Source of the DNA: a virus
IMG/VR virus record: IMGVR_UViG_3300049927_000012
Coordinates: 1-38,417 of that record
DNA length: 38,417 nucleotides
Reading direction: 5' to 3' (one strand)
The notes beneath the pieces are model-generated. The model was not told the DNA's origin. It was given only the letters and a program-made list of their open reading frames with translations, and searched no databases. Positions 6,541-33,601 of the stretch are shown one piece after another; position 1 is the stretch's first letter, and every line of letters starts with the position of its first letter. A program made the position numbers and the translations under genes.

Positions 6541-6816
6541 ATGCTCCCCATCGACTGGCCCAAGATCATCGAGGAAATCGCCGACCGGCTCGGCGAGGAA
6601 GACCCTGTGTGTCCGGGCCAACGCATCCCCTGCAGCGGGCGCCCGCTCGCGGCCCAGCTCAGCCAGCCGCGCTCCACGCTGCAGGGGTGGATCGACGGCA
6701 GTGAGCCGAAGCACGCCGACGGCGAGGCGCTGCTTGATCGCTGGTCTCAGCTCACTGGGAAGGCACGCATCTTCGCGCCCAGGGAACAGCGCTCGCTGTC
6801 GGCTGCGAAGCTGTAG
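6541..6816 (+). CDS. Helix-turn-helix protein, candidate late-gene regulator
   Basis: This 91-aa protein begins MLPIDWPKIIEEI, a signature of phage HTH proteins. The segment LAAQLSQPRSTLQGWIDGSEP (split about residues 37-57) is the HTH with a typical recognition helix and wing, then a helix (GEALLDRWSQLTG). It is the last early gene, and the first copy of the bipartite GGACTGGAWTCC element starts 2 bp after its stop. That makes it a natural candidate for the protein recognising that element. ATG 6541 is preferred over TTG 6535. Confidence 0.7.
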   Translation: MLPIDWPKIIEEIADRLGEEDPVCPGQRIPCSGRPLAAQLSQPRSTLQGWIDGSEPKHADGEALLDRWSQLTGKARIFAPREQRSLSAAKL

Positions 6817-6817
6817 C

Positions 6818-6851
6818 GGACTGGAATCCGGCCAGCGCGGCGGCTGACCAT
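6818..6851 (+). promoter_or_regulatory. Bipartite late-element copy 1
   Basis: GGACTGGAATCCGGCC, then 12 bases, then GACCAT. The same layout recurs at 11956 and 25896. It lies in the only gap between the early genes and the virion module, 38 bp before ATG 6890. The GGAATCC core is palindromic. GGAATC to GACCAT is 17 bp apart, like a -35/-10 pair with a non-consensus -35, as expected of an activator-dependent promoter. Confidence 0.5.
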
Positions 6852-6889
6852 GCCGGCCTACTGCCACCCAGCACGCATAGGAGCGCCGC

Positions 6890-7270
6890 ATGTCCCGATC
6901 TTCCGCCCTCAAGGTTCAAACGCCGGGCGCTCCGCCCGAGGCTGGCACCACCCAGCCCGCACAGGAGCAGGACTCGGACGAGGACCAGACTCGTGACCTC
7001 ACGGCGGGCGCAGACGACGTCGACGCCCTGAAGCGCAAGCTCACCGCCCTCGAAGCCAAGAACGCCGAACTGCAGGCCGACCTCGCGAGCAAGGCGAAGT
7101 CCAGCATCATCTACGAGCCCGAGACGCCGCACGGCAAGCTGCGCTTGGCCGCCAGCGATACCGGTACCATGACCGTCGCTGCGGTGTCGGCGGCCATCAA
7201 AAATGGCAAGCTCGCCGAGCCGATCACGAACTACCTCTGCGCCGACGGCCACTACTGCCGGCGCGGCTGA
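6890..7270 (+). CDS. Virion-module hypothetical protein with coiled coil (126 aa)
   Basis: The first gene after the early/late gap, with ribosome-binding site AGGAG. Residues 1-42 are disordered, acidic and Q/P-rich; residues 43-70 (ALKRKLTALEAKNAELQADL) are a coiled coil; the C-terminal 55 residues form a small beta-rich domain ending CADGHYCRRG. Position before the portal suggests a head-assembly or minor virion role, not shown by any motif. Confidence 0.65.
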   Translation: MSRSSALKVQTPGAPPEAGTTQPAQEQDSDEDQTRDLTAGADDVDALKRKLTALEAKNAELQADLASKAKSSIIYEPETPHGKLRLAASDTGTMTVAAVSAAIKNGKLAEPITNYLCADGHYCRRG

Positions 7271-7282
7271 TCCGGGGTCATC

Positions 7283-7723
7283 GTGGGCTGGTTCAGCGGA
7301 AAAACCTTCGGCGTCCTGGCGGCCCTCGGCCCGATCCCGGCCATGATGTCGGTGCAGCACGACGCGCAGAAGGAACAGGCCGCGGCTCTGCGGTCGATGC
7401 ACGACGAGGACGCACGCAAGGCGGCCGAGGCTGAGACGGGCGCCGCTGTTGCAGCCAACGCCCAGATCGCCGAGTCGAAGCGCCGCCGCCGGTCCAGCGC
7501 GCTCGGCCTAGGCGATGACAGCGCAACGGACACGCTCGGTGCGCCCACCGGGGCACTGGCGGGCGGCGCATCCGCAGCGTCTCGCTCGCTGGCCGCGTAC
7601 TACAGCGGCGGCACCAGCTACGGCGGCACGGCACTCGGTGCAGGCGCCAGCGTGAGTTCTGGGCCGCGTCTGTCCTACGGCGGCGGCGGTGGCCGCGCCC
7701 CGACCTCGAGCAAGGTGGTCTGA
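7283..7723 (+). CDS. Putative minor virion protein, Gly/Ser/Ala-rich (146 aa)
   Basis: Reads from GTG 7283 (MGWFSGKTFGVLAALGPIPA), a hydrophobic N-terminus followed by a charged helix (residues 24-70, rich in A, E, K and R). A low-complexity C-terminal half (S/G/A with repeated Y-GG) ends next to the portal gene. It looks like the small hydrophobic plus glycine-rich proteins seen upstream of podovirus portals. Function unknown. A later ATG could be the true start. Confidence 0.6.
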   Translation: MGWFSGKTFGVLAALGPIPAMMSVQHDAQKEQAAALRSMHDEDARKAAEAETGAAVAANAQIAESKRRRRSSALGLGDDSATDTLGAPTGALAGGASAASRSLAAYYSGGTSYGGTALGAGASVSSGPRLSYGGGGGRAPTSSKVV

Positions 7724-7725
7724 GC

Positions 7726-9327
7726 ATGGCCGCCTTCGCCAACCTCAAGCGCCGCCTGACCAGGCTCAAGACCCTGCGCCAGCCTCACGAGCAGGTCTGG
7801 CGCGATTGCTTCGACCACTCGTGGCCGATCCGCGGCTCCGGCCTGCAGAGCAGCTCCCCGCTCGACGCGCAGCAGGCCATGGATCGCAAGGCCCGCCTAC
7901 TGCACAGCGTTTCCACGGACGCCGCACGCACGCTGGCCGCCGCCATCGTCTCCGGCGCCGTTCCGCCAAGCTCGGTCTGGGCGTTGCTGGACGTGACCGG
8001 CGCCGACCCCGATGCACTGACCTGGCTCGAGGACAAGGGCAAGCAGCTACACGAGGAAATGCACGCCAGCACCTTCGACGCTGCGGCGATCGAGTGCGCC
8101 ATGGATCTGGTCGCCGGCGGCTGGTTCGCGCTGTACGTCGATGTCGACCGCAAGATCGGTGGCCTGACGTTCACGCAGTGGCCGCTTGCCAGCGTCTATG
8201 CCGCAACCTCGAAGGCTGGCGGCCTGGTAGACACGGTGTTCCGCGAGTACGTGCTGACCGCCGAGCAGTGCATGACGGAGTTCGGCGCCGACAAGGTTTC
8301 GGGCGACGTGCTGAAGAAGTTCAACGCCGATCCGGACACGCCCGTCACGATCTGCCACGCGATCTACCCGCGCGCCATGTACGTGGTCGGCTCGCGTCTG
8401 GCGCGTAACCTGCCGATCGCGAGTTGCCACTTCGAGGTCGAGTCCGAGCACGAGCTGCGCGAGAGCGGCTATCACGAGATGCCGGTGATCGTGCCGCGCT
8501 GGACGGTGATCCCCGACAGCGTCTATGCCGTTGGCCCGATGTTCGACGCGCTGCCAGATGCGCGCGAGCTCAACGCATTCCTGGGCATGGATAAGATGAA
8601 CAGCGAGCTGGCCGTGGCCGGCATGTGGATCGCCGAGGACGACGGCGTGCTGAACCCGCGCACCGTCAAGGTCGGCCCGCGCAAGGTCATCGTAGCCAAC
8701 AGCGTCGACTCGATGAAGCTACTTTCCGCCGGCGGCAACTGGCAGTTGGCCAGCGAGCGCATCGCGCAGTACGAGGGATCGATTCGTCGCACGCTGATGG
8801 CTGATCAACTGCAGCCGATGGATGGTCCGTCGATGACGGCCACCGAGGTGCACGTTCGCGTGAGCATGATTCGCCAGCTGCTCGGCCCGATCTACGGCCG
8901 CCTGCAGGCTGAGTGGCTTGCGCCGATGGTCGAACGCTGCTTTGGGCTGATGTTCCGCGCTGGCCTGTTCGGTCAGGCGCCGGACGCTCTCGGTGGCCAG
9001 AGCTTCCGAGTTCGCTACAACAACCCGCTGGCGCGCGCTCAGAAGTCCGACGACGTGGGAGCGATCGAGCGCCTGAACCAGAACATCACGCTCATCGCCC
9101 AGATCGCGCCCGAAGCAAAGGACGTCGTCGACTTCGACGAGCAGACCCGCACGCTGGCCGAATCGCTCGGTGTTCCGCTCAGCACCATGCGCACGCCCAA
9201 GCAACTCGACGCCTTCCGCAAGGCTCGCGCCGATCAGCAGGCCGCGCAGCAGCAGCAGGCGCAGAACCAGCAACTTGAAACGATGGCCGCTGACGCGCAG
9301 AACCAGCGCTCTGTCAAGGCCGCTTGA
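7726..9327 (+). CDS. Portal protein (T7 gp8-type head-tail connector)
   Basis: 533 aa, almost the length of T7 gp8 (536). The N-terminal region (RLKTLRQPHEQVWRDCFDHS, residues 10-29) and RKARLLHSVSTDAARTLAAA (about 54-73) are family hallmarks, followed by the central clip/stem domain and a glutamine-rich disordered C-terminus (QQAAQQQQAQNQQ). Twelve copies form the ring at the unique capsid vertex through which DNA is packaged and ejected. The upstream stop is two bases away. Confidence 0.93.
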   Translation: MAAFANLKRRLTRLKTLRQPHEQVWRDCFDHSWPIRGSGLQSSSPLDAQQAMDRKARLLHSVSTDAARTLAAAIVSGAVPPSSVWALLDVTGADPDALTWLEDKGKQLHEEMHASTFDAAAIECAMDLVAGGWFALYVDVDRKIGGLTFTQWPLASVYAATSKAGGLVDTVFREYVLTAEQCMTEFGADKVSGDVLKKFNADPDTPVTICHAIYPRAMYVVGSRLARNLPIASCHFEVESEHELRESGYHEMPVIVPRWTVIPDSVYAVGPMFDALPDARELNAFLGMDKMNSELAVAGMWIAEDDGVLNPRTVKVGPRKVIVANSVDSMKLLSAGGNWQLASERIAQYEGSIRRTLMADQLQPMDGPSMTATEVHVRVSMIRQLLGPIYGRLQAEWLAPMVERCFGLMFRAGLFGQAPDALGGQSFRVRYNNPLARAQKSDDVGAIERLNQNITLIAQIAPEAKDVVDFDEQTRTLAESLGVPLSTMRTPKQLDAFRKARADQQAAQQQQAQNQQLETMAADAQNQRSVKAA

Positions 9328-9344
9328 TTCCACAGGAGGCCACC

Positions 9345-9659
9345 ATGCCCGGTCCTATCGCAAAAGGTTCTTTCGACAGCGGCAACGCGACGGTCGGCTC
9401 TGCCAACGTAGCCGGCGAGGTCATGTGCACGCCCACCGGGGTGACTAGCATGAAGCTCACGCTCACCGGCCTGGACGCCTCGAACACGGTCAAGACGCAG
9501 AAGCGCACGGCCGGCGGCGCGTTCGCCGACCAGACCACCTACAACTCGAACCAGGCCGCGGTTGGCGTGACCGTCGCAGCGGGCGAGGAATGGCGGGTCG
9601 TCTGCATCACGCAGCAGGCGATCAAGGAAATCCAGTACACCCTTTCCTGCGAGAGCTGA
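9345..9659 (+). CDS. Putative small virion beta-protein (104 aa)
   Basis: ATG 9345 has a perfect AGGAGG site. The composition is all-beta (alternating V/T/S, almost no long helices), typical of a decoration or minor head protein. It lies between portal and scaffold, where T7 has no equivalent, together with the next gene. No family identified. Confidence 0.65.
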   Translation: MPGPIAKGSFDSGNATVGSANVAGEVMCTPTGVTSMKLTLTGLDASNTVKTQKRTAGGAFADQTTYNSNQAAVGVTVAAGEEWRVVCITQQAIKEIQYTLSCES

Positions 9660-9663
9660 AGCC

Positions 9664-10770
9664 ATGACCATCGACGCGAATTCCGTCTCTTCCGCGCTGG
9701 CAGTGCTGGGCGCATCCGGCTGGGTTGCGACGACGCTGGCGCCCGTTCCGTCCGTTGTATCGGCAATCGGTGGCTATCAGCAATCCATCACGCCACTGCC
9801 CAGCATTCTGCTGTCGGACAACTTCAACGGCACGACGATCGACACGACGAACCGGTGGGTGACACCTGTCACGGCCGGCACGGGCACGATGACGCAAGCT
9901 ACGGGCGGCCTCATCGCCACAACCGGCACGACGGCCAGCAACGCCGCGGCTATCACCAGCATCGAGACGTTCGAGCCCAACATCGGAAATCTGGTCGGCG
10001 GCACGCTCCTGAGCATCGAAGCCGCACCTGGCCTCAACACGAACCGATGCTTTGGCTTCTACACCCGGCCTGGCAGCTTCACAGCTGCCACGCCGGTGCA
10101 GGACGGCTACGTGTGGGAGTTCGACATCACGGGCACGTTCGGCGCGAGCATCTACAGCGGCGGCACGCGGGTCTTCCGCCAGGTCTTCCCGATCAACGGT
10201 GCAACCTTCCTGCCTGTGAGCATTTCGTACCAGGGCCTGAACGTCCAGTTTTTCATCAACGACTTCACGCGGCCTGCGATCACCATTCCGCTGCTGCAGC
10301 CCAGCACGCTGAATCTGCCGCTCGGATTCCACTGCATCAACCACACTTCGGTTCCGGCAGCCGCGCCGACGTGGAGCATGAGTGGTGCCGCAGCGCTGGA
10401 CAACTCGGGCGCGCTGGACACCTACTTCAACGGCCAGACCCTGTCGCGCGTTCGGCTTCCCAGCGTCTTCATCCCGCTCAACGCCGTGTCGATCGCTTCC
10501 GAGGCGACCATCTGGACGCCCGCTTCCGGCAAGCGCTTCCGCCTCATGGGCTTCGTGCTCGAAAGCGGCACCGTTGGCGGCAATGTGCTGCTCAAGGACA
10601 ACACAGGCGGCACGCTCAAGCTGGTCATCCCGTTCGGCGCGGCCGGCTCGGTGATCCAGTCTGTTCCCATGGGCAACGGCATCCTGAGCGCTGCGGCAAA
10701 CAATGTCCTTACGGCGACGGGCGGTGCGACGCAGACGCTTAGCGGGTACGTGTACGGAACGGAAGAATGA
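9664..10770 (+). CDS. Putative virion surface protein, beta-rich (368 aa)
   Basis: The first 50 residues are hydrophobic; then LLSDNFNGTTIDTTNRW (about 49-65) opens a jelly-roll/lectin-like beta-sandwich, as in concanavalin-like phage proteins. The last 110 residues form a second beta domain (PASGKRFRLMGFVLESG). This two-domain layout suggests a head fibre or decoration protein that could bind cells or surfaces. It overlaps the next gene by four bases. Confidence 0.6.
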   Translation: MTIDANSVSSALAVLGASGWVATTLAPVPSVVSAIGGYQQSITPLPSILLSDNFNGTTIDTTNRWVTPVTAGTGTMTQATGGLIATTGTTASNAAAITSIETFEPNIGNLVGGTLLSIEAAPGLNTNRCFGFYTRPGSFTAATPVQDGYVWEFDITGTFGASIYSGGTRVFRQVFPINGATFLPVSISYQGLNVQFFINDFTRPAITIPLLQPSTLNLPLGFHCINHTSVPAAAPTWSMSGAAALDNSGALDTYFNGQTLSRVRLPSVFIPLNAVSIASEATIWTPASGKRFRLMGFVLESGTVGGNVLLKDNTGGTLKLVIPFGAAGSVIQSVPMGNGILSAAANNVLTATGGATQTLSGYVYGTEE

Positions 10771-11021
10771 ACGAACTGCGGCCGGATGCTGACACTTACG
10801 CGCGAGTATTCGAAGGGCACCACGAGGGCGTTCTGATCCTCGAGGACCTGACCCGACGCTTCGGCGGCGCGCTGTTCGTCAAGGGTGGGGAGGAAGGGCG
10901 CAGGCAGACCGACTTCAACCTCGGCCGGCGCTCGGTGCTCGACTTCATCCTCGGGCAGATCAACCAGTCGAACAACGTCGCGCCACCCGACGACGACCAA
11001 GATTCCCCACCCGCCGGCTGA
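10767..11021 (+). CDS. Bbp19-like structural-region protein (84 aa)
   Basis: The sequence YARVFEGHHEGVLILEDLTRR (split across residues 11-31) and GRRSVLDFILGQI match the small protein family named after Bordetella phage Bbp19, found between portal and scaffold genes in many podoviruses. It is soluble and alpha-helical with an acidic tail. The role is undefined. A terminator overlaps its last codons. Confidence 0.75.
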   Translation: MNELRPDADTYARVFEGHHEGVLILEDLTRRFGGALFVKGGEEGRRQTDFNLGRRSVLDFILGQINQSNNVAPPDDDQDSPPAG

Positions 11022-11033
11022 TGCCGGCTTTTT
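11013..11033 (+). terminator. Rho-independent terminator before the scaffold gene
   Basis: GCCGGC-TGAT-GCCGGC followed by five T residues. The 6-bp GC stem overlaps the stop codon of the preceding gene. It would reduce read-through from the portal-side genes into scaffold and capsid. Confidence 0.75.
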
Positions 11034-11048
11034 CCTTTGCGAGGCACC

Positions 11049-11948
11049 ATGAGTGACGTTCTCAACCCTCCCGCGCCGGCTCCTGTCGAAGTTCCTGCGG
11101 CTCCTCCCGCCGCCCCGGCCACTGCACCCGCCGCTGCCGCTCCTGCGCCTGCTAGCGCGCTCACGGCGCCTCCGGCGCCTGCAGCGGCGAGCCCGTCGCC
11201 TGCGCCTGCGCCGGAAGCGCTGCCGGTCATCCCGGACAAGTTCGTCGTCAAGGACGCAACCGGTCAGGTCGACCACGCCGCCACGGCGCTGAAGATCGCC
11301 GGCAGCTACGCCGGCCTGGAGAAGCGCCAAGGCTCCGGCGAGATCCGCCCCGAGACCGTCGAAGGCTACAAGGTCAACGTGCCCGAAGCGCTGAAGGACC
11401 AGGTCAGCGCCGAAACCTTGGGCAAGGACGCGTCGTTCCAGACCTTCCTCGGCGCCATGCACGCAGCTGGCGCATCGCAGAAGGTGCTCGACGTGGCCGT
11501 GGCCGAGTTCCTTTCCAACGGCGGCCACGCCCCCGATCCGTCCATGCAGATGGCCAACTGCGTGTCGACGCTGCGCAAGGGCGACGGCTGGCAGACGCAG
11601 GCGCAGTACGACGCGCAGATCGGCCTAGCCTTCAACGCCACCAAGAGCTTTGCCGAAAAGGCTGGCGTGAGCATGGACGACATCGCCAAGGCGGGCCTGA
11701 ACAACAACGCCGCCTTCATTCGCATCATGGCGGCGATCGGCCCCGAGCTGGCCGAAGACCGCGGCGCATCGCCCGAGGCGCAAGCGCAGATCCAGGGCAA
11801 CCTGGACACGCTGATGGCAGACCCGGCCTACCTGAACCAGAACCACCCGAAGCACTCGACGCTGGTAGCGCAGGTCGAAACGCTGACGAAGCAGCAGGTT
11901 GGTCAGCGCTCGGTTGCGGCAGGCATGTCGCACACGTTCAAGTCCTGA
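11049..11948 (+). CDS. Scaffolding/capsid-assembly protein
   Basis: 299 aa, near the size of T7 gp9 (307). The first 65 residues are almost entirely Ala, Pro and Val (disordered); the middle (FVVKDATGQVDHAATALKIA) and the helical C-terminal half fit podovirus scaffolds, which line the inside of the procapsid and leave before DNA packaging. Directly precedes the major capsid gene. I chose ATG 11049 (GAGG site) over an in-frame start 12 bp upstream. Confidence 0.85.
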   Translation: MSDVLNPPAPAPVEVPAAPPAAPATAPAAAAPAPASALTAPPAPAAASPSPAPAPEALPVIPDKFVVKDATGQVDHAATALKIAGSYAGLEKRQGSGEIRPETVEGYKVNVPEALKDQVSAETLGKDASFQTFLGAMHAAGASQKVLDVAVAEFLSNGGHAPDPSMQMANCVSTLRKGDGWQTQAQYDAQIGLAFNATKSFAEKAGVSMDDIAKAGLNNNAAFIRIMAAIGPELAEDRGASPEAQAQIQGNLDTLMADPAYLNQNHPKHSTLVAQVETLTKQQVGQRSVAAGMSHTFKS

Positions 11949-11955
11949 AACCCCT

Positions 11956-11989
11956 GGACTGGATTCCGTCCAGGCCGCCGCGCGACTAT
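11956..11989 (+). promoter_or_regulatory. Bipartite late-element copy 2 in the capsid leader
   Basis: GGACTGGATTCCGTCC, then 12 bases, then GACTAT, matching copies 1 and 3. CTGGAC/GTCCAG also forms a 6-bp stem here. The element begins 8 bases after the scaffold stop. The 186-base gap (11949-12134) holds this element and otherwise no convincing gene, so it is probably the leader of the capsid mRNA. Confidence 0.5.
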
Positions 11990-12134
11990 GCCCGCCAATC
12001 GGCCCGCATGGCGCGCGGACAACCGGATCGACAAGCCCGTCATGGCCGCGGTAGCCGGCGACACCATGACGTAGCTCGGGCCTCGAGAGAGACAACCCGG
12101 AGGCGAACACATCGTTCAACTTCGGAGTCCTAAA

Positions 12135-13028
12135 ATGAGCTTCACGATCCCCGAAAACTTCGTGGTGCAGTTCGCGAACAACTTCCGCACGCTGTACCAG
12201 CAACGCCAATCCCGCTTCCGTCCGTGGTGCCAGATCGAATCGGGAATCACTGGCCAGTCCAAGAGCGTCGAGCGCATGGGCAAGGCCGAAGCCTACGACA
12301 TCACCAGCCGCCACGCGGACACCAAGTTCGTGGAAGTGCCGCACTCGCGCCGCTGGATCGACCTCCAGGACAAGGGCTGGGCCGAGCTGATCGACAAGCT
12401 CGACAAGGTTCGTCTGCTGGCCGACCCGACCAACGGTTACGCGATGCTCGCCAACGCCGCGCTGAACCGCCAGATCGACGACCTGATCCTGACCGCAGCC
12501 CGCGGCAACGCGCGCACGAACGCCGGCCTGGCCGCGTTGCCGTCGACTCAGAAGATCGCGGTGGGCGGCTCGAACCTGACGCTGGCCAAGCTGCTGACGA
12601 CAAAGGAAATCCTCGACTCCAACGAAGTCGACGACGACGCCAGCATGCAGGCCGACGGCCAGAGCGCCACCGAGCAGAGCGCGCGCGTGATCGCCGTCAA
12701 CGCCAAGATGCTGACCAACCTGTACGGCACGACGGAAATCAAGTCGGTTGACTACAACTCGGTGAAGGCTCTGGCCCAAGGCCAGATCGACACCTTCCTC
12801 GGCTTCAAGTTCGTTCGCAGCGAGCGTGTCGCCAAGGACGCCACTGCCACCACCGGCTATGCCGTTGCGTGGTCGCGGAGCTGCGTTGCGCTTGGCATTG
12901 GCCAGGACATCAATTCCTCGGTCGACCGCCGCCCGGACAAGAACAATGCCTGGCAGGTCTTCGCCGACATGTCCATGGGCGCCACCCGCCTCGAAGACGA
13001 AGGCGTCGTCGAAATCGCCTGCGCCTGA
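12135..13028 (+). CDS. Major capsid protein
   Basis: 297 aa. The sequence NFVVQFANNFRTLYQQRQSR near the N-terminus and YDITSRHADTKFVEVPHSRR later match the podovirus-type HK97-fold capsid family (Phage_capsid_2). No N-terminal delta domain is obvious, fitting the separate scaffold gene upstream. Hundreds of copies form the icosahedral shell. A GGAG site lies nine bases before ATG 12135, and the leader contains the bipartite element. The next gene encodes a partner head protein. Confidence 0.93.
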   Translation: MSFTIPENFVVQFANNFRTLYQQRQSRFRPWCQIESGITGQSKSVERMGKAEAYDITSRHADTKFVEVPHSRRWIDLQDKGWAELIDKLDKVRLLADPTNGYAMLANAALNRQIDDLILTAARGNARTNAGLAALPSTQKIAVGGSNLTLAKLLTTKEILDSNEVDDDASMQADGQSATEQSARVIAVNAKMLTNLYGTTEIKSVDYNSVKALAQGQIDTFLGFKFVRSERVAKDATATTGYAVAWSRSCVALGIGQDINSSVDRRPDKNNAWQVFADMSMGATRLEDEGVVEIACA

Positions 13029-13061
13029 TCGCGGCCGGCTCAACCATCACAGGAGCAAGAC

Positions 13062-13766
13062 ATGGCAAATTTCATCGCCGACCTGCAGACCACGCTCGAC
13101 GGCCCGGCCAACGGCTTTCCGCCCACGACGCGCACGAAGGTCAACCGACAGAACGGCCGCATCCGGTATTTCGACGCGGTCTACCGCGCGCCGGCATCCG
13201 GCACCGCGCCGGCCATCGGCGACAAGATCATCTGGGGCAAGCTGCCGACCGGCGCGCGCATCCTCGGCCATCTGTCGCGGCTGGACTTCAACACTGGAAC
13301 GGCGTCGTCCACGTTGAACCTGGGCGACCAGTTCCAGGCGGCGCGTCACCTGGCGGCGACCTCGGTGGCGGCCACCGGCAACGCGACGCCCAGCGTGGCA
13401 GTGTTCACCAACACCACCACGGCGGATGTGACGATCAGCAGCGCCACGCTGACGAACGTCAAGGGCCTGGGCGGCTACACTGTGGGAGGCATCGTCACCG
13501 GCACCGGCATCCCGACGGCGACCTACGTGGTGTCGGTCGACAAGTACGCCAAGAGCGTCACGCTGTCAGCCGTTGCCACCGCGACCAACGCCGCGGTGAC
13601 GATCACGTCGTACGGTGCGCCGTTCGAAACCAGCGACGACACGTCGAACGTCAACAACGGGTACGCCTCGACGACCGACGACTGCACGCTGATCTCCGTG
13701 GTTGCCGGCGCCCAGATCGCCAACAACCAGATGCTGTCGCTGCAGATCGCCTACGTTTGCGATTGA
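13062..13766 (+). CDS. Head decoration/minor head protein (234 aa)
   Basis: Follows the capsid gene with an AGGAG site. The core (TTRTKVNRQNGRIRYFDAVY, GDKIIWGKLPTGARILGHLS) is a family found just after the capsid gene in similar phages. Residues about 100-190 hold an inserted module (GGIVTGTGIPTATYVVSVDK, SVTLSAVATATNAAVTIT) of a beta fold common in phage surface proteins. The insertion makes this longer than plain family members, which suggests an added surface-exposed domain. Confidence 0.75.
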   Translation: MANFIADLQTTLDGPANGFPPTTRTKVNRQNGRIRYFDAVYRAPASGTAPAIGDKIIWGKLPTGARILGHLSRLDFNTGTASSTLNLGDQFQAARHLAATSVAATGNATPSVAVFTNTTTADVTISSATLTNVKGLGGYTVGGIVTGTGIPTATYVVSVDKYAKSVTLSAVATATNAAVTITSYGAPFETSDDTSNVNNGYASTTDDCTLISVVAGAQIANNQMLSLQIAYVCD

Positions 13767-13772
13767 CCGAAG

Positions 13773-13789
13773 ACGCCCTCCCCGGGCGT
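13773..13789 (+). terminator. Stem-loop after the head-protein gene
   Basis: ACGCCC-TCCCC-GGGCGT, a strong short hairpin 6 bases after the stop codon, without a T-tract. It is probably an mRNA-stabilising or processing structure in front of the true terminator at 13801. Confidence 0.45.
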
Positions 13790-13800
13790 TGATCTCCACG

Positions 13801-13826
13801 AGGGGGGCCTGACGGCTCCCCTTTTT
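13801..13826 (+). terminator. Rho-independent terminator after the capsid/head genes
   Basis: A 9-bp stem (AGGGGGGCC with GGCTCCCCT, one G-T pair), TGAC tetraloop and a T5 tract. With the terminator at 11013 it brackets scaffold, capsid and head protein as a unit, the genes needed in highest amount. Confidence 0.8.
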
Positions 13827-13840
13827 CGTTGAGGCCTCCA

Positions 13841-14440: not shown

Positions 14441-14443
14441 TCC

Positions 14444-16906: not shown

Positions 16907-16915
16907 GAGCGGTTC

Positions 16916-17461: not shown

Positions 17462-17464
17462 TCC

Positions 17465-19531
17465 ATGGCAACCATTCCCCGCACCGGACCTGACCTGAGC
17501 ATCGGAGGGCGCATCGCCGCGCCAGCCCCGGACGTCAACCCCGGCATCATCGACGTCGCCGGGCGCGCGCTCCAGAACGCAGGTGGCGCCCTGACCGAGG
17601 TGGGCGGCGACATTCGCGCCGAGCACGACAGGCGCGCGCACATGGACATGCTCTACGCGCAGCAGACGCGCGCCGCGGCGATCGACGCGCAGAGCATCAC
17701 CGCGCTCACCACGGGCCGGGACCAGTTGGCCGATCTGCACGACACGATCACGCAGGGCGTCATCGACGGCAGCGTGCCCAAGGATGGCGCGGAAGCGGCC
17801 TACGCCTCGAAGTCGCGCGAGCTTCTGGACAATGTCGACCAGAACCTGCCGCAGGAGGCGCGCAACCGCGTGACCGCTCAGCTCGGCGGCGATGCCGCGC
17901 GCTTCGGCAACACGGTACGCCGCGCAGTCACGCAGCGTGATCGCATGGATGTCACGTCGGGCATCGGCCAGACGCTGGAGAACCTGCAGCGATCGTTCGC
18001 CGCCGACCCAGAGGGCGCGACGAAGCAGGCCGTGGACACGGTCGACGCGCTCGGGCCGCACTCGACGCTGACGCCGGAGCAGCAGACCAAGACGAAGCAG
18101 GCTTGGAAGGAGAACACACAGTACACCACCGGCTACGGACTGGTGACCGCCGGGCGCAACGACCGCAAACAGCTCGACCTGGCCGAGGGCGTCATCACCG
18201 ACGGGTTGCCCGACCTCGACCCGCAGAAGCGCGCCCAGCTCCTGCGCGAGGTCGAAACGTCGCGGATGCATCTCGACCAGAAGGACGAGATGGCCGTCGC
18301 GCGCGCGCAGCGCGAGTGGGAGCGCCTCATGAAGCAGGCGGAAACCTCCTACAACGTGATGCAGGGCATGGCCGACAAGGGCACGCTGCTTGATCCGCAA
18401 TACACCCAGCAGGTGATGCAACTGACCGCCGGAACGCCGTACCAGGCCGGCGTCGTGGCCCTCGCCAAGCAGGCCAAGGACGGCGCCGGCTGGGCCGCGC
18501 AGCCGATCTCGTCGCAGCTTGCCGCGCTCGATCAGGTCAACAGCCAGATAGCGACCAATGGCCGCACACCCGAACTCGACGCGCGCAAGAATCAGCTCGA
18601 GAAGATCACGAACGGCAGCATCGCCGACGTGAAGCGCGACCCGATGCGCGCCGGCCTGGAGCGCGGCGTGATCACCGACCTGCAGCCGATGGACTGGAGC
18701 CACGGCATGCCCGGTGTCGTGGCGCAGATACAGCAGCGCCTGCCCGGCGCGCAGCGAGTGGGCATGTGGGCCGGTCAGCCGGTGTCTCCGCTGACGGCCG
18801 ACGAAGCCGAGCACCTGCAGGGCGCGCTCTCCGCGCTGGCGCCGAAGGATCGCTCCACCATGATCGCCAGCATCGCCACGTCGATCGGCCCGCAGGCGTC
18901 CCAGGGCCTGGCCGCGCAGATGGATCCGAAGGACAAGGCGCTGGGGCTGGCGTTCGGATACGCCGGCATGCAAACCACTTTCGGGCGCTACACCTCGGAG
19001 CTGGTGCTGGCGGGCCAGAAGGCCAAGGCGGACGGCACCAGCACGAAGGGAGAGAAGTCGCCCGACCTCAAGGTGTCCGGCTGGCAGGCCTACATCACGG
19101 ACGAGCTCGGTGGCGCGTTCCCGGCCGAGACGCAGAACACCCAGGTTCGAGACGCCGCGGTGCTGATCGCGCACGCCATCGCGGCCGAGAAGGGTGGCGA
19201 ACTGTCCAAGGACGACATGAATCGCGCGGTCACGCTCGCCTCAGGCGGCCCGGTCGTCGACCTGAACGGCCGCAAGGTGCCGCTGCCGGCCGGCATGGAT
19301 GAGGGCATGCTGCAGCGCCGCCTGAAGGGCGTCAGCCCGCAGGAGCTGTCCGCGCAGGCGCCCGGCGGTCAGGTGATCGCTGGCGGCGTGCCGATGTCGC
19401 TGGCCGACTTCACCCACAGCCTGCCCGGCCAGCAGTTGCTCTACGCTGGGCCCGGCAAGTACGCGGTCATCGTCAGCGGTCGGCCGGTGAAGAGCACCGA
19501 CGGCAAGAACATCCTGATCGGGGTGCAGTGA
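17465..19531 (+). CDS. Internal virion protein (T7 gp15-like)
   Basis: 688 aa (T7 gp15 is 747). Almost entirely alpha-helical after a proline-rich N-terminus (PRTGPDLSIGGRIAAPAPD), with long Q/E/K-rich helices, as expected of the periplasm-spanning ejection protein. It has no enzymatic motif. Sits between the gp14-like and the gp16-like proteins, in the T7 order. Confidence 0.8.
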   Translation: MATIPRTGPDLSIGGRIAAPAPDVNPGIIDVAGRALQNAGGALTEVGGDIRAEHDRRAHMDMLYAQQTRAAAIDAQSITALTTGRDQLADLHDTITQGVIDGSVPKDGAEAAYASKSRELLDNVDQNLPQEARNRVTAQLGGDAARFGNTVRRAVTQRDRMDVTSGIGQTLENLQRSFAADPEGATKQAVDTVDALGPHSTLTPEQQTKTKQAWKENTQYTTGYGLVTAGRNDRKQLDLAEGVITDGLPDLDPQKRAQLLREVETSRMHLDQKDEMAVARAQREWERLMKQAETSYNVMQGMADKGTLLDPQYTQQVMQLTAGTPYQAGVVALAKQAKDGAGWAAQPISSQLAALDQVNSQIATNGRTPELDARKNQLEKITNGSIADVKRDPMRAGLERGVITDLQPMDWSHGMPGVVAQIQQRLPGAQRVGMWAGQPVSPLTADEAEHLQGALSALAPKDRSTMIASIATSIGPQASQGLAAQMDPKDKALGLAFGYAGMQTTFGRYTSELVLAGQKAKADGTSTKGEKSPDLKVSGWQAYITDELGGAFPAETQNTQVRDAAVLIAHAIAAEKGGELSKDDMNRAVTLASGGPVVDLNGRKVPLPAGMDEGMLQRRLKGVSPQELSAQAPGGQVIAGGVPMSLADFTHSLPGQQLLYAGPGKYAVIVSGRPVKSTDGKNILIGVQ

Positions 19532-21222
19532 TGCCGTTCGATGATCTGTACCAGAACGACACGAACGCCGCTATCAATGCGATGGACCTGCGGCCCGCGG
19601 CGCCGGCGCAGAACCAGCGCAGCGCCTGGAGCGCGCCGTGGCGGGCGGTGAAGGCCGCCGCGGCTGATGTCGCCGGCAGCATGGCCGACCTGGGCAAGTC
19701 CTACGCCGCGGCGTCTGCGATGACGCTGGAGTCCGATCCGATCGCGCGCCAGACCATGGATCCGCAGTACCTGCACGAGGGTGCCGAGGAAGGCCGGCGC
19801 CAGATCTCCACGGGCGAGGCCATGACGTCGGAGATCGGCCAGGTGGCGCGCAACTACTCGCGCTCGCTACGACCTGACCCGATGACGGCCGGAACCGCGG
19901 AGAAGGTCATCTTCGGCGTCATGCGCCCGGTGTCCAAGCTGGTGGCGGGCGGCATGCTAGCGGGCCCGTTCGGCATCGTCGGCGCCGCCGGCGAGGAAGG
20001 TCTGACCACGTCGGACGACCTGCGCGCAGAGGGCGTGGACTTCGCGACCCGAGCCAAGATCGGCAGCCTGACGGCGGGCGTGACGGCGGCGACGGCCTTC
20101 GCGCCGCTCGCTGGCCCCACGCTCAGGGCGACCGCCGCGCTGTACGTGGCCGGCGGTCCGGGCGCGTTCATGGCGCAGCAGGCCGCCACGCGCGCGATCC
20201 TCGAGCACGCGAACTATCCCGACCTGGCCAAGCAGTACGACCCGCTCGACCCGGTAGGCCTGGCGGTGTCGGCGCTGATTCCGCTGCCGTTTGCGGCGCA
20301 CGGCGCGATGCGGGTCGCTGGTTCTACGCGAGGATCGGTTACCCCCGTCCACGCTCCAGACGGCGTTGTCGACGCTGCGCTGACGCACAACCTGACGGTG
20401 CAGGCCGACCAGCACGCCGCGATCGATCCGGTGTTGGCGGGCACGGAGATGGCCGACAACATCGCCAGAGAGCGAGCACCACAGGCCGTTCCACGTGAAA
20501 CCGCGACGGCTATCGAACGCAACACGGTTCGCGTCGTCAAGAAGGAGGACGGCAGCCTCGACGTGGAGGCGACCCTTGCGAATCTGCCGCCGGTAGCCGA
20601 TGGCGAAGTGCGTCTGTTTCGCGGCGAGTCGCCAACCTCCAAGTTCAGCGACGTCTTCAATCCTGAAGCGCTGACAAGGCACCGCGCATCGGACATTCCA
20701 GGCCAGCGCTATTCCACTGAGCTGTCCGTCGCCGACTACTACCGGGACGCCTACGACGAAAACCGCGACGCCTCAATCCACTACATCGACGTGCCCGAGG
20801 CTGTCGCAGAGCATGGGCGTGTCAGCGACGACGAGATCAAGGTCGACCTCAACGCCGTGAACCAGCGCCGAGCGCGCGGCGACATGACGCCACCACCGAA
20901 GCGCGCTGCTGACACCGAAACTCCAAGCGCCGCCAAGACGGCTTCGGCGCTCGACCAGAACCGTCTCACCGGCGCGGAGGCGCCGCCCGGCGCCGTCAAG
21001 GCCGACCCGGTGCAGCAAGTCGTTCATAGCCGCGTTTCTCAGCTCGAAGCCTTCGCTGGCGACATGCCGGTGCGCGTCGATGATGCGGGCAAGACGGCGA
21101 CCGTCAGCGACGAGATCGCGCGCATCAAGCAGGAGGTCAACGAGGGCACCGACACCGAGCTCGGGCACCAGGACGCCGACCTGCTACGAGTCGCCGCCGA
21201 GTGCGCGCTGTCGCTCAGCTGA
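19531..21222 (+). CDS. Internal virion protein with ADP-ribosyltransferase-like segment
   Basis: 563 aa, in the place where T7 has the N-terminal part of gp16. Residues 115-260 hold three hydrophobic segments (VAGGMLAGPFGIVGAAG; TAGVTAATAFAPLAG; LAVSALIPLPFAA) that could insert into the inner membrane. Residues 355-445 look like an ADP-ribosyltransferase of the R-S-E type: R364 in LFRGES, S395-T396 in YSTELSVADYY, then IHYIDVP and an acidic site at D433-D434-E435. Codon use there is less GC-rich than around it. No lytic transglycosylase motif is seen. I prefer ATG 19531 over the GTG one codon earlier. Activity is unproven. Confidence 0.7.
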   Translation: MPFDDLYQNDTNAAINAMDLRPAAPAQNQRSAWSAPWRAVKAAAADVAGSMADLGKSYAAASAMTLESDPIARQTMDPQYLHEGAEEGRRQISTGEAMTSEIGQVARNYSRSLRPDPMTAGTAEKVIFGVMRPVSKLVAGGMLAGPFGIVGAAGEEGLTTSDDLRAEGVDFATRAKIGSLTAGVTAATAFAPLAGPTLRATAALYVAGGPGAFMAQQAATRAILEHANYPDLAKQYDPLDPVGLAVSALIPLPFAAHGAMRVAGSTRGSVTPVHAPDGVVDAALTHNLTVQADQHAAIDPVLAGTEMADNIARERAPQAVPRETATAIERNTVRVVKKEDGSLDVEATLANLPPVADGEVRLFRGESPTSKFSDVFNPEALTRHRASDIPGQRYSTELSVADYYRDAYDENRDASIHYIDVPEAVAEHGRVSDDEIKVDLNAVNQRRARGDMTPPPKRAADTETPSAAKTASALDQNRLTGAEAPPGAVKADPVQQVVHSRVSQLEAFAGDMPVRVDDAGKTATVSDEIARIKQEVNEGTDTELGHQDADLLRVAAECALSLS

Positions 21223-21391
21223 GGATGGCCGACAGCAGCAGGGCCACCAGAACCAGCGCGAGAGTCAGAACGGCCCAGATTTTCACGTAGCGCATAGCGC
21301 CGCGCCAGTTGCCAGCGGCGCCCAGTCCGGCGAGCATCAGCACCGCGAGCGCGGTAAGCGCAAACCAGACGACAGGAAGGAAACGACCCAT
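21215..21391 (-). CDS. Antisense two-helix membrane protein (58 aa)
   Basis: On the minus strand, ATG 21391 to stop 21215 encodes MGRFLPVVWFALTALAVLML, a GNWRG turn, then a second helix (KIWAVLTLALVLVALLLSAI). Two transmembrane segments with a basic loop make it look like a small holin or other membrane protein. It fills the 167-bp gap between two large plus-strand genes exactly, its start sharing CCATGG with the next plus-strand start. The plus strand has no plausible gene in the gap. The ribosome-binding site is weak and no promoter is obvious, so it is uncertain. Confidence 0.5.
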   Translation of the reverse strand: MGRFLPVVWFALTALAVLMLAGLGAAGNWRGAMRYVKIWAVLTLALVLVALLLSAILS

Positions 21392-23927
21392 GGCAATCGA
21401 CCCGAAGTGCGCCGCAGCAGTCCGAGCCGCGGCGGCAGGCCGCAAGCTCAGCGGCGATAAGCTCAACACGCTGAGCAACGCACTGGATTCTGCGGCCCGC
21501 GACCTCGCCCGGCAAGACCCGCCTCGCTGGCGCGCGCTCACGCGCGACCAGCGCATGGCCGAGGCCTTGGACAAGGCCATGGCCGACGTTCATGGCGAGG
21601 CCACCCTGAAGGAGCACCGCGCCAACCTGCAGCTTTTACGCGCATCGGAGACGGATGCCCGCATCGCCGAGCAGATGCGCCTGGGCAAGACGACGCGGTC
21701 AACGGCGCAGGTTCGCGACATCGAGAACACCATCGACTACGGACACTCCGTTCGCGATGAGGCGATCTCGGGCCTGAAAGATCTGGTCGACGCCGCAGAA
21801 TCGAAGGACGGCACCGGCAAGCTGAGAAACCTCGGCATGCGCATCTTCGACCTCGACAATCCGATGATGACCGCCGACATCGTGCGCGAGATCTTCAAGT
21901 CCGCCGATGGCAGCACCGGCAGCGCGGAGGCCCGGGCCGCGGCGCGCGCCTGGTTGGACACCATCGAGGGCATGCGCCAGCGTTTCAACGCCGCCGGCGG
22001 CAACGTCGGGAAGCTCGCCTACGGCTATCTCTCGCAGGCGCATGACGCGGTGCGCGTGGCCGCCGCCGGCGCGGAGGCATGGGCCGCCAAGGTACTGCCG
22101 CTGCTCGATCGCCGCCAGTACCTGAAGGAGGACGGCGCGCTGATGAACGACGGCGAGGTGCTGGACCTGCTGCGCGCCGCGCACGACACGATCGCCACCG
22201 GTGGCCAGAACAAGACGCTGCCCGGCCAACCCAAGGGCACCGGCGCGCGCGCCAACCGCGGCAGCGAGGGCCGCGTGCTGCACTTCAAGAACGGCGACGC
22301 CTGGATGGCCTACATGGACGACTTCGGCGAGGGCTCGCTGTACGACGCGATGATGGGCCACATCGGCTCCATGGCCCGCGACATCGCCCTCGTGGAGCGC
22401 TACGGCCCGAATCCGGCGCAGGTCTTCAAGCTGCAGAACGACCTCTCCGAACGCGCCGACGGCAAGGGAACCCTCGCCAACCGAACCATGGGCAACGTGC
22501 CGCAGGCGTACTGGGACATCGCCACCGGCGTGACCGGATCGCCCGAGAATCGGCTCATTGCGCGCGTCGGCGCAGACATGCGCAACATCCAGACCGCTGC
22601 CAAGCTGGGCGGCGCCGTGCTGGCGTCGACCGCTGACGTGGGCACGATCGCCTCGTCGATCCACTACAACCGCCTGGACTACTTCCGGATGCTGTCCAAC
22701 ATCGGTCGGCGGCTCAAGCCCGGCAGTGATGAGCGCGACTTCCTGCAGGCGCACCAGGTGATCGCCGAATCGCTGACCAGCACGCTCAACCGCTGGACGG
22801 GCGACAACATGACGCACAGCCTGACCGGGCGCGTCGCCGCTTCGGTGATGAAGCTGTCGCTGATGAACGCCTGGACGGACGGATTGCGCGGTGCGTTCTC
22901 GGCCACCATGATGCAGGGATTCGCGAAGAAGCTCGGCAAGGCCTGGGGCGAGCTCGACGAGTGGGACCAGTACCTCATGGGCCGCAAAGGCATCACCGAG
23001 GCCGACTGGAACATCATCAGCCAGTCGGCGCCGGCGGAACGCAGTGGCCAGCAGTACCTGAGCGCGGCTGAGGTGCGCAAGATCGACGCCGAGGGCGCAC
23101 AGCAGGCAGCCAGCAAGTGGGCTGCGTTCGTCAGCGACGAGTCGCAGTTCGCCGTGCTGAACCCGGACGCGGCCACGCGCGCAATCGCCACCGGCGGCGG
23201 GATGCCGGCCGGCACACTGCGCGGCGAGGCGGCGCGCTCCATCGCCCAGTTCAAGAGCTTTCCCATCGCCATGCTGACGCGCCACTGGCGCCGCATCCTC
23301 GAGACTCCACAGGGCCTGGAGGGCGCGCCGACAGGCTACGGGGCGAAGACTGGCGCCGGCGCCGTGGTCAATCGCGTGGCGGGCCTGGCCGCGCTCAATG
23401 TCACGCTGATGATGCTCGGCGCCATCGTGATGCAGAACAAGGCGCTGGTGCTGGGCAAGGATCCCTACGACATGACCGATGGGAAGTTCTGGGCACGAGC
23501 CCTGACCCAGGGTGGTGGCCTCGGCTACGTCGGCGATCTGCTGTTCAAGGATCCGACCGACCAGCGTGGAAACACCTACGAGCAGGCCGCGGGCGCCGCG
23601 TTCGGGCCGGTGGCTGGCGCCGCATCCGGCCTGGTGATGGATCTCGGCTTGGTCAACGCGTGGGAACTGGCGAAGGGCAAGACCACGCACGCGGGAGCAG
23701 AGGCAATTCGGTGGGTTAACGGACAGCTCCCCTACGTCAGCCTCTGGCAGGTGCGCGCGCTGTGGGAGCGCGCATTCCTGTTCCAGGCGCAGGAGGCAGT
23801 GAGCCCGGGCTACTTGAGCCGCATGATGCAGCGCGCTCAGCACGACTGGCACCAGGGCTACTGGGCGCCGCCGGATCAGGTGGTTCCGGAGAGGGCTCCC
23901 GATTTCGGCAAGGCTGTCGGACAATAG
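21390..23927 (+). CDS. Large internal virion protein (T7 gp16 C-terminal-like)
   Basis: 845 aa, helical, with conserved ejection-protein features near the end (SIAQFKSFPIAMLTRHWRRI, about 614-633) followed by hydrophobic segments (LAALNVTLMMLGAIVM; AAFGPVAGAASGLVMDLGL). Together with the 563-aa protein upstream the length (about 1,408 aa) approximates T7 gp16 (1,318 aa), suggesting one protein split in two. The start at ATG 21390 has a GGAAGG site. It is the probable inner-membrane component of the ejection channel. Confidence 0.8.
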   Translation: MAIDPKCAAAVRAAAAGRKLSGDKLNTLSNALDSAARDLARQDPPRWRALTRDQRMAEALDKAMADVHGEATLKEHRANLQLLRASETDARIAEQMRLGKTTRSTAQVRDIENTIDYGHSVRDEAISGLKDLVDAAESKDGTGKLRNLGMRIFDLDNPMMTADIVREIFKSADGSTGSAEARAAARAWLDTIEGMRQRFNAAGGNVGKLAYGYLSQAHDAVRVAAAGAEAWAAKVLPLLDRRQYLKEDGALMNDGEVLDLLRAAHDTIATGGQNKTLPGQPKGTGARANRGSEGRVLHFKNGDAWMAYMDDFGEGSLYDAMMGHIGSMARDIALVERYGPNPAQVFKLQNDLSERADGKGTLANRTMGNVPQAYWDIATGVTGSPENRLIARVGADMRNIQTAAKLGGAVLASTADVGTIASSIHYNRLDYFRMLSNIGRRLKPGSDERDFLQAHQVIAESLTSTLNRWTGDNMTHSLTGRVAASVMKLSLMNAWTDGLRGAFSATMMQGFAKKLGKAWGELDEWDQYLMGRKGITEADWNIISQSAPAERSGQQYLSAAEVRKIDAEGAQQAASKWAAFVSDESQFAVLNPDAATRAIATGGGMPAGTLRGEAARSIAQFKSFPIAMLTRHWRRILETPQGLEGAPTGYGAKTGAGAVVNRVAGLAALNVTLMMLGAIVMQNKALVLGKDPYDMTDGKFWARALTQGGGLGYVGDLLFKDPTDQRGNTYEQAAGAAFGPVAGAASGLVMDLGLVNAWELAKGKTTHAGAEAIRWVNGQLPYVSLWQVRALWERAFLFQAQEAVSPGYLSRMMQRAQHDWHQGYWAPPDQVVPERAPDFGKAVGQ

Positions 23928-23930
23928 GCC

Positions 23931-24329
23931 ATGCGACAAGACCAGTACCAACGCCTGCAGGAGCTCGAGGAAAAGCTCGTCGATGTCTTCCTGTTCGAAG
24001 CCGACCCGGCGAAGTGGCCCGGCGCGGGCATCGAGCCGAACGCGATGGATCGCGACACGCGCGGCGACCGCTACTGGTGCAAGAAGAATCCGGCCGCAAC
24101 GCTGGCGCTCGCGATACGCGTGCAGGGCCTGATCCACCAGACCCAACAGCTCGGCGACACGCCGCCCCCTGGCGCGCCGGTGACCACGACCGAGCAGAGC
24201 GACGAAGAGGCAATGCACATGGACAGCGAAATCGCACGATATGAAAAGCAGGCGGCAGCGCTGCTGGACACGATGACGCGAGCCGGGCAGAAAGCGGCAT
24301 TCGATGCCCGCGCCAAGCCCAAATCCTGA
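23931..24329 (+). CDS. Putative small terminase subunit (132 aa)
   Basis: Three bases after the preceding stop and overlapping the large terminase gene by 26 bp. The N-terminus (RQDQYQRLQELEEKLVDVF) is a long helix, then RDTRGDRYWCKKNPAATLAL, a block I recall in proteins directly upstream of large terminases in related phages. The C-terminal 50 residues are another helix. Size and position fit a DNA-recognition (small) subunit like T7 gp18. No classical HTH is obvious. Confidence 0.65.
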   Translation: MRQDQYQRLQELEEKLVDVFLFEADPAKWPGAGIEPNAMDRDTRGDRYWCKKNPAATLALAIRVQGLIHQTQQLGDTPPPGAPVTTTEQSDEEAMHMDSEIARYEKQAAALLDTMTRAGQKAAFDARAKPKS

Positions 24330-25974
24330 ACGCACCTTCCTCGCGTTCTTCCTGGCATGGGCGCAGGTGCAGGGCTGGTCCGTGCCGATGCTGCACGTGT
24401 GGGTCTGCCACTGGCTCGACACCTGCGACGACTCCGAGCGCGTGCTGCTGGTCTTTCGAGGCGCGGCGAAGTCGACGATCTATGCCGTCTTCAAGGCGTT
24501 CAAGCTCTGGAAGAACCGGTCGCATCGGTCGCTGATCTGGTCGGCCGACAACGACACTGCAGGCATGCTCACCGCCGACACGCTCAACGTCCTGAGAAAT
24601 CATCCATGGTGCGGCGGCATGCTGCCAAGGAACAAGCCCGGCGCGCGGCGCTTCTGGGTGCTGGGTGCGCGCGACGCCCGCAACGCGTCGATGCGTGCGG
24701 TGGGCGTGAACACGAACGCCACCGGCGCACGCGCGGACGACGTCGACTTCGACGATTGCGAGGTAGCCGGCAACGTCGAGACCACGGAGGCCCGCGCGAA
24801 GCTGCGCCACCGGATCAGCGAGTCGACGCACATCGCCGTGCCCGGCGGCCAGAAGACCTACATCGGCACGCCGCACACCCACGATTCGATCTACATCGAG
24901 CGCGTAGCCGGCGGTGCGGCGCTGCTCAAGATCGCACTTTTCGAGCATTCGGCGCGGTTCACAAAGGACGTCAACAAGCGCACACGCTACCCGTTCCCGC
25001 ACCCGGTCGGGGATGATGGCCTGTACGTCATGGCCGGCATCTACAAGTCGGCGCGCATGCTTCAGGATGGCATCGACTACACCCGCGCCGGCGCGGAGAT
25101 CGTCTTCCGCGAGCCGCCCGACTGCGTCTTCGACATCGCCTCGAAATGCAACTGGCCCGAGCGCTTCACCCGCACTGAGATCGCCAAGCGCCGCAAGGAA
25201 ACGCTGACATTCAACGCCTGGGATTCGCAGTACCTGCTTGAGGCCAAGCCGCTGACGGAGGTGCGTTTGGACCCGTCCAGGCTGAAGGCCTACGCTGACG
25301 AGCCTATCCTTAAGCGCTCCAACCGTGAGCTGGGGATGTGGCTTGGCCAGGTGCGCATCGTCGGCGCGGCGTGCCGCTGGGATCCGTCGAGCGGAAAGCT
25401 CAAGAGCGACGTGTCCTCGCTGTCGGTCATCCTGCAGGACGATCTGGGCCGCCGCTACTGGCATCGCGCGATCGCGCTTGAAGGCGACGTGGCGATCTTC
25501 GATGAAGACGGCAAGACGATCACCGGCGGCCAGGTCATGGGTATCGTTCGCGCGGTCAAGGCGCTGCATCTACCTCGCGTCAGCGTCGAAACCAACGGCA
25601 TCGGCGGCTTCGCGCCCACGGTGCTCAAGGCCGCGCTGAAGCAGAGCCGCCTGCGCTGCGGCGTAACCGAGATCCAGAGCACCGACAAAAAGAACAAACG
25701 CATCCTCGAGGCGTTCGAAGACCCGCTGGCATCCGGGACCCTGTGGGCGCACACGTCGGTGATCGACGGCGACGCCTGGGAGCAGATGCGCGACTGGAAC
25801 CCGGCCATCAAGGATCAGCCTGACGACCACCTCGATTCTGGGGCTGGCGCCATCACGGAGACGCCGGAGCGCATCGGGCGGCTGGCTGATGCTGTGGACT
25901 GGAATCCGTCCGGTGGCCGAGACGACGATTGGCGCCCAGCAGGGGGCATGCACGAGGTGGAGCTGGAAAGCTGA
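24304..25974 (+). CDS. terL: Large terminase subunit (packaging ATPase/nuclease)
   Basis: 556 aa (T7 gp19 is 586). A Walker A-type loop FRGAAKST occupies residues 51-58; GARADDVDFDDCE (141-153) is the Walker B region with the catalytic carboxylates; GTPHTHDSIY (about 184-193) is a coupling-motif region. The C-terminal half carries the RNase H-like nuclease, with FDEDGKTITGG, VETNGIGG and a final GAGAITETPERI. It docks on the portal, pumps DNA into the head and cuts concatemers. As in T7 it lies after the internal virion genes, not before the portal. Confidence 0.92.
   Translation: MPAPSPNPERTFLAFFLAWAQVQGWSVPMLHVWVCHWLDTCDDSERVLLVFRGAAKSTIYAVFKAFKLWKNRSHRSLIWSADNDTAGMLTADTLNVLRNHPWCGGMLPRNKPGARRFWVLGARDARNASMRAVGVNTNATGARADDVDFDDCEVAGNVETTEARAKLRHRISESTHIAVPGGQKTYIGTPHTHDSIYIERVAGGAALLKIALFEHSARFTKDVNKRTRYPFPHPVGDDGLYVMAGIYKSARMLQDGIDYTRAGAEIVFREPPDCVFDIASKCNWPERFTRTEIAKRRKETLTFNAWDSQYLLEAKPLTEVRLDPSRLKAYADEPILKRSNRELGMWLGQVRIVGAACRWDPSSGKLKSDVSSLSVILQDDLGRRYWHRAIALEGDVAIFDEDGKTITGGQVMGIVRAVKALHLPRVSVETNGIGGFAPTVLKAALKQSRLRCGVTEIQSTDKKNKRILEAFEDPLASGTLWAHTSVIDGDAWEQMRDWNPAIKDQPDDHLDSGAGAITETPERIGRLADAVDWNPSGGRDDDWRPAGGMHEVELES
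25896..25929 (+). promoter_or_regulatory. Bipartite late-element copy 3 inside the terminase 3' end
   Basis: GGACTGGAATCCGTCC, 12 bases, then GACGAT, the same spacing as copies 1 and 2. It lies within the terminase reading frame (VDWNPSGG), 77 bp before the tailspike gene. Because it is also coding, chance cannot be excluded. Confidence 0.4.
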
Positions 25975-33559: not shown

Positions 33560-33582
33560 GCTGTTCCTTGATGAATTTGGCA

Positions 33583-33594: not shown

Positions 33595-33601
33595 ATCGGG
33601 T

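Follow-up and report, generated by a model that had tools for sequence, protein, structure and literature searches.

Does the element that occurs three times ahead of the late gene blocks of this virus act as a promoter, and which protein acts on it? The window (the whole stretch of DNA that was analyzed) is a virus record of 38,417 bp. A scan of the window retrieved exact matches to the 34-bp pattern at 6818 to 6851 (site A), 11956 to 11989 (site B), and 25896 to 25929 (site C), all on the plus strand and all where the original prediction had placed them. No further site in the window was within 3 mismatches of the pattern, and the pattern occurred in 0 of 100 dinucleotide shuffles of the window. 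A profile built only from eight other genomes put the same three sites on top, with 23.9, 23.4, and 19.7 bits. The next-best scores in the window were 17.7 and then 9.0 bits. The 34-bp element is real, because it is present in three exact copies with 0 expected by chance and because a profile from other phages ranks the same sites first.

Each copy consists of a 16-bp inverted repeat (the operator), exactly 12 bp, and a −10-like hexamer, NANNNT, without a −35 hexamer. Site A has the operator GGACTGGAATCCGGCC (6818 to 6833) and the hexamer GACCAT (6846 to 6851). Site B has the operator GGACTGGATTCCGTCC (11956 to 11971) and the hexamer GACTAT (11984 to 11989). Site C has the operator GGACTGGAATCCGTCC (25896 to 25911) and the hexamer GACGAT (25924 to 25929), which is part of the codons for DDWRP. 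The original prediction had described a palindromic GGAWTCC core separated by 17 bp from GACNAT. The symmetry is not confined to this core; it extends over all 16 bases, and the outer arms covary. The distance is 17 bp only when it is counted from the hexamer GGAWTC; from GGAWTCC it is 16 bp. A separate sequence at 1055 to 1070, TGGCTTGAATGCGCCG, is identical at 15 of 16 positions to the operator of a relative (G016, described below). It does not have a proper −10 and is possibly a chance match or a remnant.

The genes around the three sites are on the plus strand. Site A directly follows a small helix-turn-helix (HTH) gene of the XRE/lambda-repressor-like type (6541 to 6816), whose stop codon ends at 6816. 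The first gene of the virion block (6890 to 7270), which has homologs in relatives, begins 38 bp past site A. Site B is 145 bp upstream of the major capsid protein gene (12135 to 13028; PHROG 3437, E value of 3e-78). Site C is 77 bp upstream of the ATG at 26007 of the tailspike/tail fiber gene (26007 to 28265). These distances, the end of the HTH gene right before site A, and the intergenic position of sites A and B all agree with what had been claimed. Site C is located in coding sequence, near the 3′ terminus of the terminase large-subunit ORF (24304 to 25974; PHROG 38, E value of 1.5e-60).

The window contains genes for the portal, capsid, tail, terminase, and tailspike. Upstream of the HTH gene are genes for replication initiation and for a RusA resolvase, and an ExoVIII-like exonuclease is encoded on the opposite strand. 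Just 5′ of the HTH gene is a small ORF (6149 to 6538) with a weak Q-like and DnaJ zinc-finger-like match (E value of 0.025 for the Q-like PHROG). A megablast search of the window against named phages gave no match. The same 15-bp tandem repeat is present at both ends of the record (1 to 394 and 38128 to 38417), and its in-frame reading would be a pentapeptide-repeat-type protein. This suggests a circularly permuted or collapsed assembly break inside a repeat gene. A long array of 6-bp-multiple repeats (GCCGTC/GCCGGA/GCCGTA) was also found within an ORF at 33548 to 33973.

Related virus contigs were retrieved by capsid similarity (36 contigs), and portal-based searches retrieved 80 virus contigs and 42 loci in bacterial genomes. 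The layout is conserved. One site is past the HTH gene, one is about 180 bp before the capsid gene, and one precedes the tailspike gene from within the terminal (3′) part of the terminase gene. Closer relatives contain a diverged but recognizable element 173 to 188 nt 5′ of the capsid gene and a second element 4.4 to 7.9 kb further upstream, just past the HTH gene. In scans of whole records, the third copy was present in the relatives that reach that far, within the terminase 3′ end and 75 nt before the stop codon. A real promoter motif had been expected to recur upstream of these genes in relatives. It was found there, at the same three places, across a broad family of phages and prophages, and a failure of conservation was not seen.

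More distant relatives have a different sequence at the same places, and that sequence is common to the sites within each genome (e.g., TGGCTGGAWTCCGCCA, AGTCGGGAWWCCGACA, and GTCCCGGAYTCGGGAC). Sites A, B, and C all have TGTGAGGAACTTGGACA in G018, AGTCGGGAWWCCGAACG in G024, and NGGCGGGAWTYCGCCN in G030. Sites A and B have TGGCTTGAAWGCGCCA in G016 and TGACTGGAWTCCGTCA in G017; site C is outside both contigs. The element of the G018 and G021 clades has no obvious dyad. A genome-specific repeat common to a genome's own sites is the signature that one coevolving trans-acting binder would leave. In some Pseudomonas-type genomes and loci (L157, L159, G037, G039, G044, and G045), the operator is present a fourth time, between site A and the portal or capsid region. 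Around site C, the TPxRIG and DWRP motifs of the terminase are kept across clades. The amino acids beneath the copy vary by clade (VDWNPS, GKSVRNLD, TVGKPN, IGGNSP, and EMSRTRD), and the DNA matches each genome's own A/B element despite these differences.

Environmental phages have the three-site layout, as do prophages of Pseudomonas, Burkholderiales, Enterobacterales, Stenotrophomonas, and Thiobacillus. With a shared-word score of 13 as the minimum, the operator pair was retrieved from 80 genomes; a score of 13 is also common in shuffles, so that the excess rests on higher scores. This count is a lower bound, since several Pseudomonas loci have a visible B site and an A window that was missed. 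A 16-mer common to the A and B regions with at least 14 matches was present in 69 of 101 genomes versus 34 of 1,010 shuffles. AGTCGGGAWWCCGACA is the operator in Pseudomonas and, ending in C, also in Herbaspirillum. GGTCGGGAWWCCGACC is the operator in Serratia, Enterobacter, and Trabulsiella, and GTCCCGGAYTCGGGAC is the operator in a Thiobacillus MAG. The shared-word search retrieved no operator for the Acinetobacter prophages or for several Pseudomonas loci. It also did not score the pair in a Burkholderia dolosa prophage that contains the HTH gene and the capsid leader described below. The operator pair is present in L187 and L190, virus contigs that have an HTH of this kind.

In whole bacterial genomes of 3.3 to 6.3 Mb, the operator is present almost only in the prophage, with three or four copies per prophage. 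The Thiobacillus genome (3.3 Mb) contains exactly three perfect copies of the repeat, all on the prophage contig. Serratia marcescens contains three operators, all on the prophage contig. Herbaspirillum contains three in the prophage and one elsewhere, and Pseudomonas sp. WS 5079 contains four in the prophage and three elsewhere. The HTH gene, operators, and leader are all present in YeP5, an induced Yersinia phage (PMC6548840). In the Caballeronia prophage locus L297, Rfam models also identified a C4 antisense RNA and an int-alpA RNA at 1321 to 1410 and 2519 to 2585.

The downstream half of the element behaves as a −10. With no criterion placed on the hexamer, NANNNT was present at exactly 12 bases past the operator at 36 of 61 A sites and 38 of 61 B sites of distinct pairs. 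At every other spacing from 5 to 24, it was present at 0 to 8 of 61. In the registered set, the A at position 2 and the T at position 6 of the hexamer were both present at 57 of 60 A sites and 45 of 46 B sites; this set was selected for a hexamer at spacings of 11 to 13, and the unbiased figure is the count from the 61 pairs. The A at position 5 was never a selection criterion. It was present at 41 of 46 B sites versus 15 of 60 A sites, and the T at position 1 was present at 3 of 106 sites. B sites keep the A at position 5, A sites mostly do not, and the T at position 1 is rare, as if the strengths of the sites were tuned. At spacings of 16 to 18, TTGACA was matched at 4 or more of 6 bases at 3 of 106 sites. 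The original prediction had likened the element to an activator-dependent promoter. The fixed spacing of the −10 bears this likeness out, and activation is its probable meaning.

With the hexamer placed at −12 to −7, the operator would cover −40 to −25 and be centered at −32.5. Operator arm positions 3 and 14 covary (TA, GC, AT, and CG) and are complementary at 43 of 46 B sites versus 26 expected, which is what a symmetric dimer site should show. The −10 at site C is less certain than those at sites A and B because its T is shared with the conserved DW codons of the terminase. We also considered the 16-mer as an RNA hairpin with a bulged T. This reading was dropped in favor of DNA symmetry because the elements of other clades are plain palindromes that lie upstream of the −10.

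The HTH gene had been proposed as the candidate regulator. Its product matches PHROG 16553, annotated as a transcriptional repressor (E value of 3e-8), and, beyond that, only PHROG 17493. It had no significant relative in a PDB sequence search. The AlphaFold2 model is confident and mainly helical (pLDDT of 89.9 and pTM of 0.76). The top Foldseek matches of the model were mostly XRE proteins, including restriction-modification controller (C) proteins and 434 Cro; these matches were weak, with a best E value of 0.28 and none reaching 0.001. An HTH homolog is encoded directly 5′ of site A in the relatives of the window clade that cover the region. In many Pseudomonas prophages, a few hundred bases lie between the HTH gene and site A. 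The closer HTH set, used as a search query, gave 9 loci.

In a set of 50 HTH proteins that differ by more than 8%, the distances between the proteins correlated with those between the operators (Mantel r of 0.72, p of 2e-4). The partial Mantel correlation given portal distance was 0.40 (p of 2e-4) and the reverse correction left 0.16; partial tests of this kind are liberal, and the correlation between HTH and portal distances is itself 0.84. The genomes without a close HTH (G026, G029, and the Acinetobacter prophages) gave no shared operator. The candidacy of the HTH gene is strengthened by its conservation beside site A and by a divergence that tracks that of the operator, and its product, the small phage protein encoded next to the first copy, very probably binds there. 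We rejected a one-residue recognition-helix code (R to G, Q to A), which G014 contradicts and whose column associations follow phylogeny. No residue-base code could be assigned, because the columns with the best association also follow phylogeny.

We consider it likely that the three elements are activator-dependent late promoters that are read by the host RNA polymerase, with the HTH protein as the activator. The HTH protein, encoded by the last gene of the early/replication operon, would bind the 16-bp inverted repeat as a dimer. The bound dimer would replace the missing −35 and recruit polymerase to the weak −10. A promoter with a poor −10, no −35, and a dimer site in the −35 place should depend on an activator. 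Site A would turn on the head/portal block, site B the capsid/tail block, and site C the tailspike/lysis block. We infer dimer binding, activation rather than repression, the start sites, and the use of host polymerase from sequence.

The HTH protein, or a CI/Cro-like protein, may instead be a repressor that covers the −35 region of the late promoters. The name of PHROG 16553 agrees with this, and an operator over −40 to −25 is where a repressor would exclude sigma region 4. It is an unlikely explanation, however, as there is no −35 to block at nearly all of the 106 sites and the −10 is itself weak. A promoter with neither element should be silent unaided. In YeP5, the HTH gene lies past the primase gene and apart from the annotated repressor, and it is therefore expected to be off in the lysogen.

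It is rather improbable that another phage regulator binds the sites and that the HTH gene is merely nearby. In favor of this reading, the ORF at 6149 to 6538, with its weak Q-like match, precedes the HTH gene in the window. Its relatives are present in few of the genomes examined (L007 and L010), whereas the HTH gene accompanies the operator throughout. HTH divergence also tracks the operator better than portal divergence does, and the genomes without a close HTH gave no shared operator.

We give very little weight to the reading in which the whole 34-bp element is a promoter for a phage RNA polymerase or for an alternative sigma factor. The element is bipartite with a fixed spacing, and site A fortuitously fits the sigma-54 layout GG-N10-GC. 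By inspection, sites B and C do not fit this layout at −24/−12, and the window ORFs that were scanned include no gene recognized as a phage RNA polymerase or sigma factor. An inverted repeat whose arms covary fits a dimer. Between phages of similar hosts, the first half of the element varies and NANNNT stays, as expected of host sigma-70 with a phage activator. Site C does encode a part of the terminase beside the conserved DWRP motif, but terminase conservation as its only cause, with sites A and B as unrelated chance matches, is refuted: from clade to clade the encoded residues change, and the DNA keeps to the A/B element of its own genome.

The proposed HTH activator can be compared with known systems. 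T4 middle promoters contain a MotA box that is centered near −30 and replaces the −35 (PMC6755090). The likeness to T4 MotA/AsiA is that the box of a phage protein stands near −30 in the −35 place, upstream of the −10; here the center would be −32.5. The differences are the 16-bp inverted repeat, the weak −10, and the control of late genes. MotA also has a double-wing domain, whereas the protein here is a predicted helical XRE-like HTH protein. It had no MotA match in Pfam or PHROGs. No AsiA-like match was found among the window ORFs scanned, which include some of the small ORFs.

Lambda Q has a binding element between the −35 and the −10 and acts on paused polymerase, and the element of phage 21 is a direct repeat (PMC6606751). 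As with the Q proteins of lambda and 21, the candidate regulator here is encoded at the end of the early genes, with the late genes immediately after it, and the site is embedded in the putative late promoter. The site differs in being an inverted repeat that overlaps the −35 position, and there are three promoters versus the one pR′. The PHROG matches of the HTH protein show no homology to Q. The site of the Mu C protein is at or upstream of a non-consensus −35 (PMC4461284). Mu C is similar in that one small phage activator serves several late promoters with a poor −35 and −10. The HTH protein had no Pfam match up to an E value of 0.05, and no family search linked it to Mor/C.

C proteins such as C.Esp1396I, and likewise 434 Cro, are small XRE proteins that bind short inverted repeats and are among the weak fold neighbors of the HTH protein. 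They act on their own operon, in contrast to the three-promoter late regulon proposed here, and the relationship from the fold search is not significant. The best reading is that the HTH switch would be functionally like T4 MotA, would occupy the gene slot of lambda Q, and would belong to neither family.

Site B differs from sites A and C in having a conserved RNA of about 140 nt between the −10 and the capsid start codon. This structured 5′ leader lies at 11993 to 12134 on the plus strand and covaries strongly. Its fold comprises a pair of similar hairpin modules (GGCC-stem-GGAYAMCC), a hairpin in the middle, and another close to the ribosome-binding site. In 17 relatives, the 30-pair structure was formed in 94.9% of cells versus 88.0 ± 0.6% in shuffled versions and 28 to 39% in slid versions. 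Changes on both sides were present in 14 pairs versus 5.6 expected. With a covariance model, the leader was retrieved immediately 5′ of the capsid gene in prophages of Pseudomonas, Burkholderia, Caballeronia, Herbaspirillum, Stenotrophomonas, Thiobacillus, and Enterobacterales. It was present once per genome, even in whole bacterial genomes. Across 41 matches, 180 cells were changed on both sides versus 62 in shuffles, in an alignment that was fitted to the model and that includes a few weak matches (E values of 0.06 to 0.9), two of them on the other strand. The leader of the window and of six prophage loci matched no Rfam family. It may control the translation of the capsid gene or act on polymerase in a put-like manner.

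We found no description of these promoters, the regulator, or the leader in the open-access literature. The original prediction appears to be correct and more general than it was first put: a conserved three-promoter late regulon with a coevolving dyad operator and a strong candidate regulator. On balance, we favor the view that this is a late-gene switch new to the literature and that it is widespread among the podovirus-type phages and prophages of Proteobacteria. A single XRE-like protein of about 80 to 95 residues would take over the recognition of the −35 at three late promoters, including the one within the terminase gene. The capsid transcript would open with a structured RNA that has no Rfam family and that adds a layer of control of capsid synthesis at the RNA level. 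Many temperate phages, among them prophages of culturable Pseudomonas, Serratia, Enterobacter, and Burkholderia, are thereby assigned a putative mechanism of late transcription. The likely regulator gene is also named, and the simple rule of a 16-bp repeat, N12, and NANNNT would predict its targets in any member. The capsid leader is a new RNA family for study. The matched pairs of protein and operator, of which there are many, form a natural data set on how an activator and its sites change specificity jointly, with one site that is also under coding constraint.
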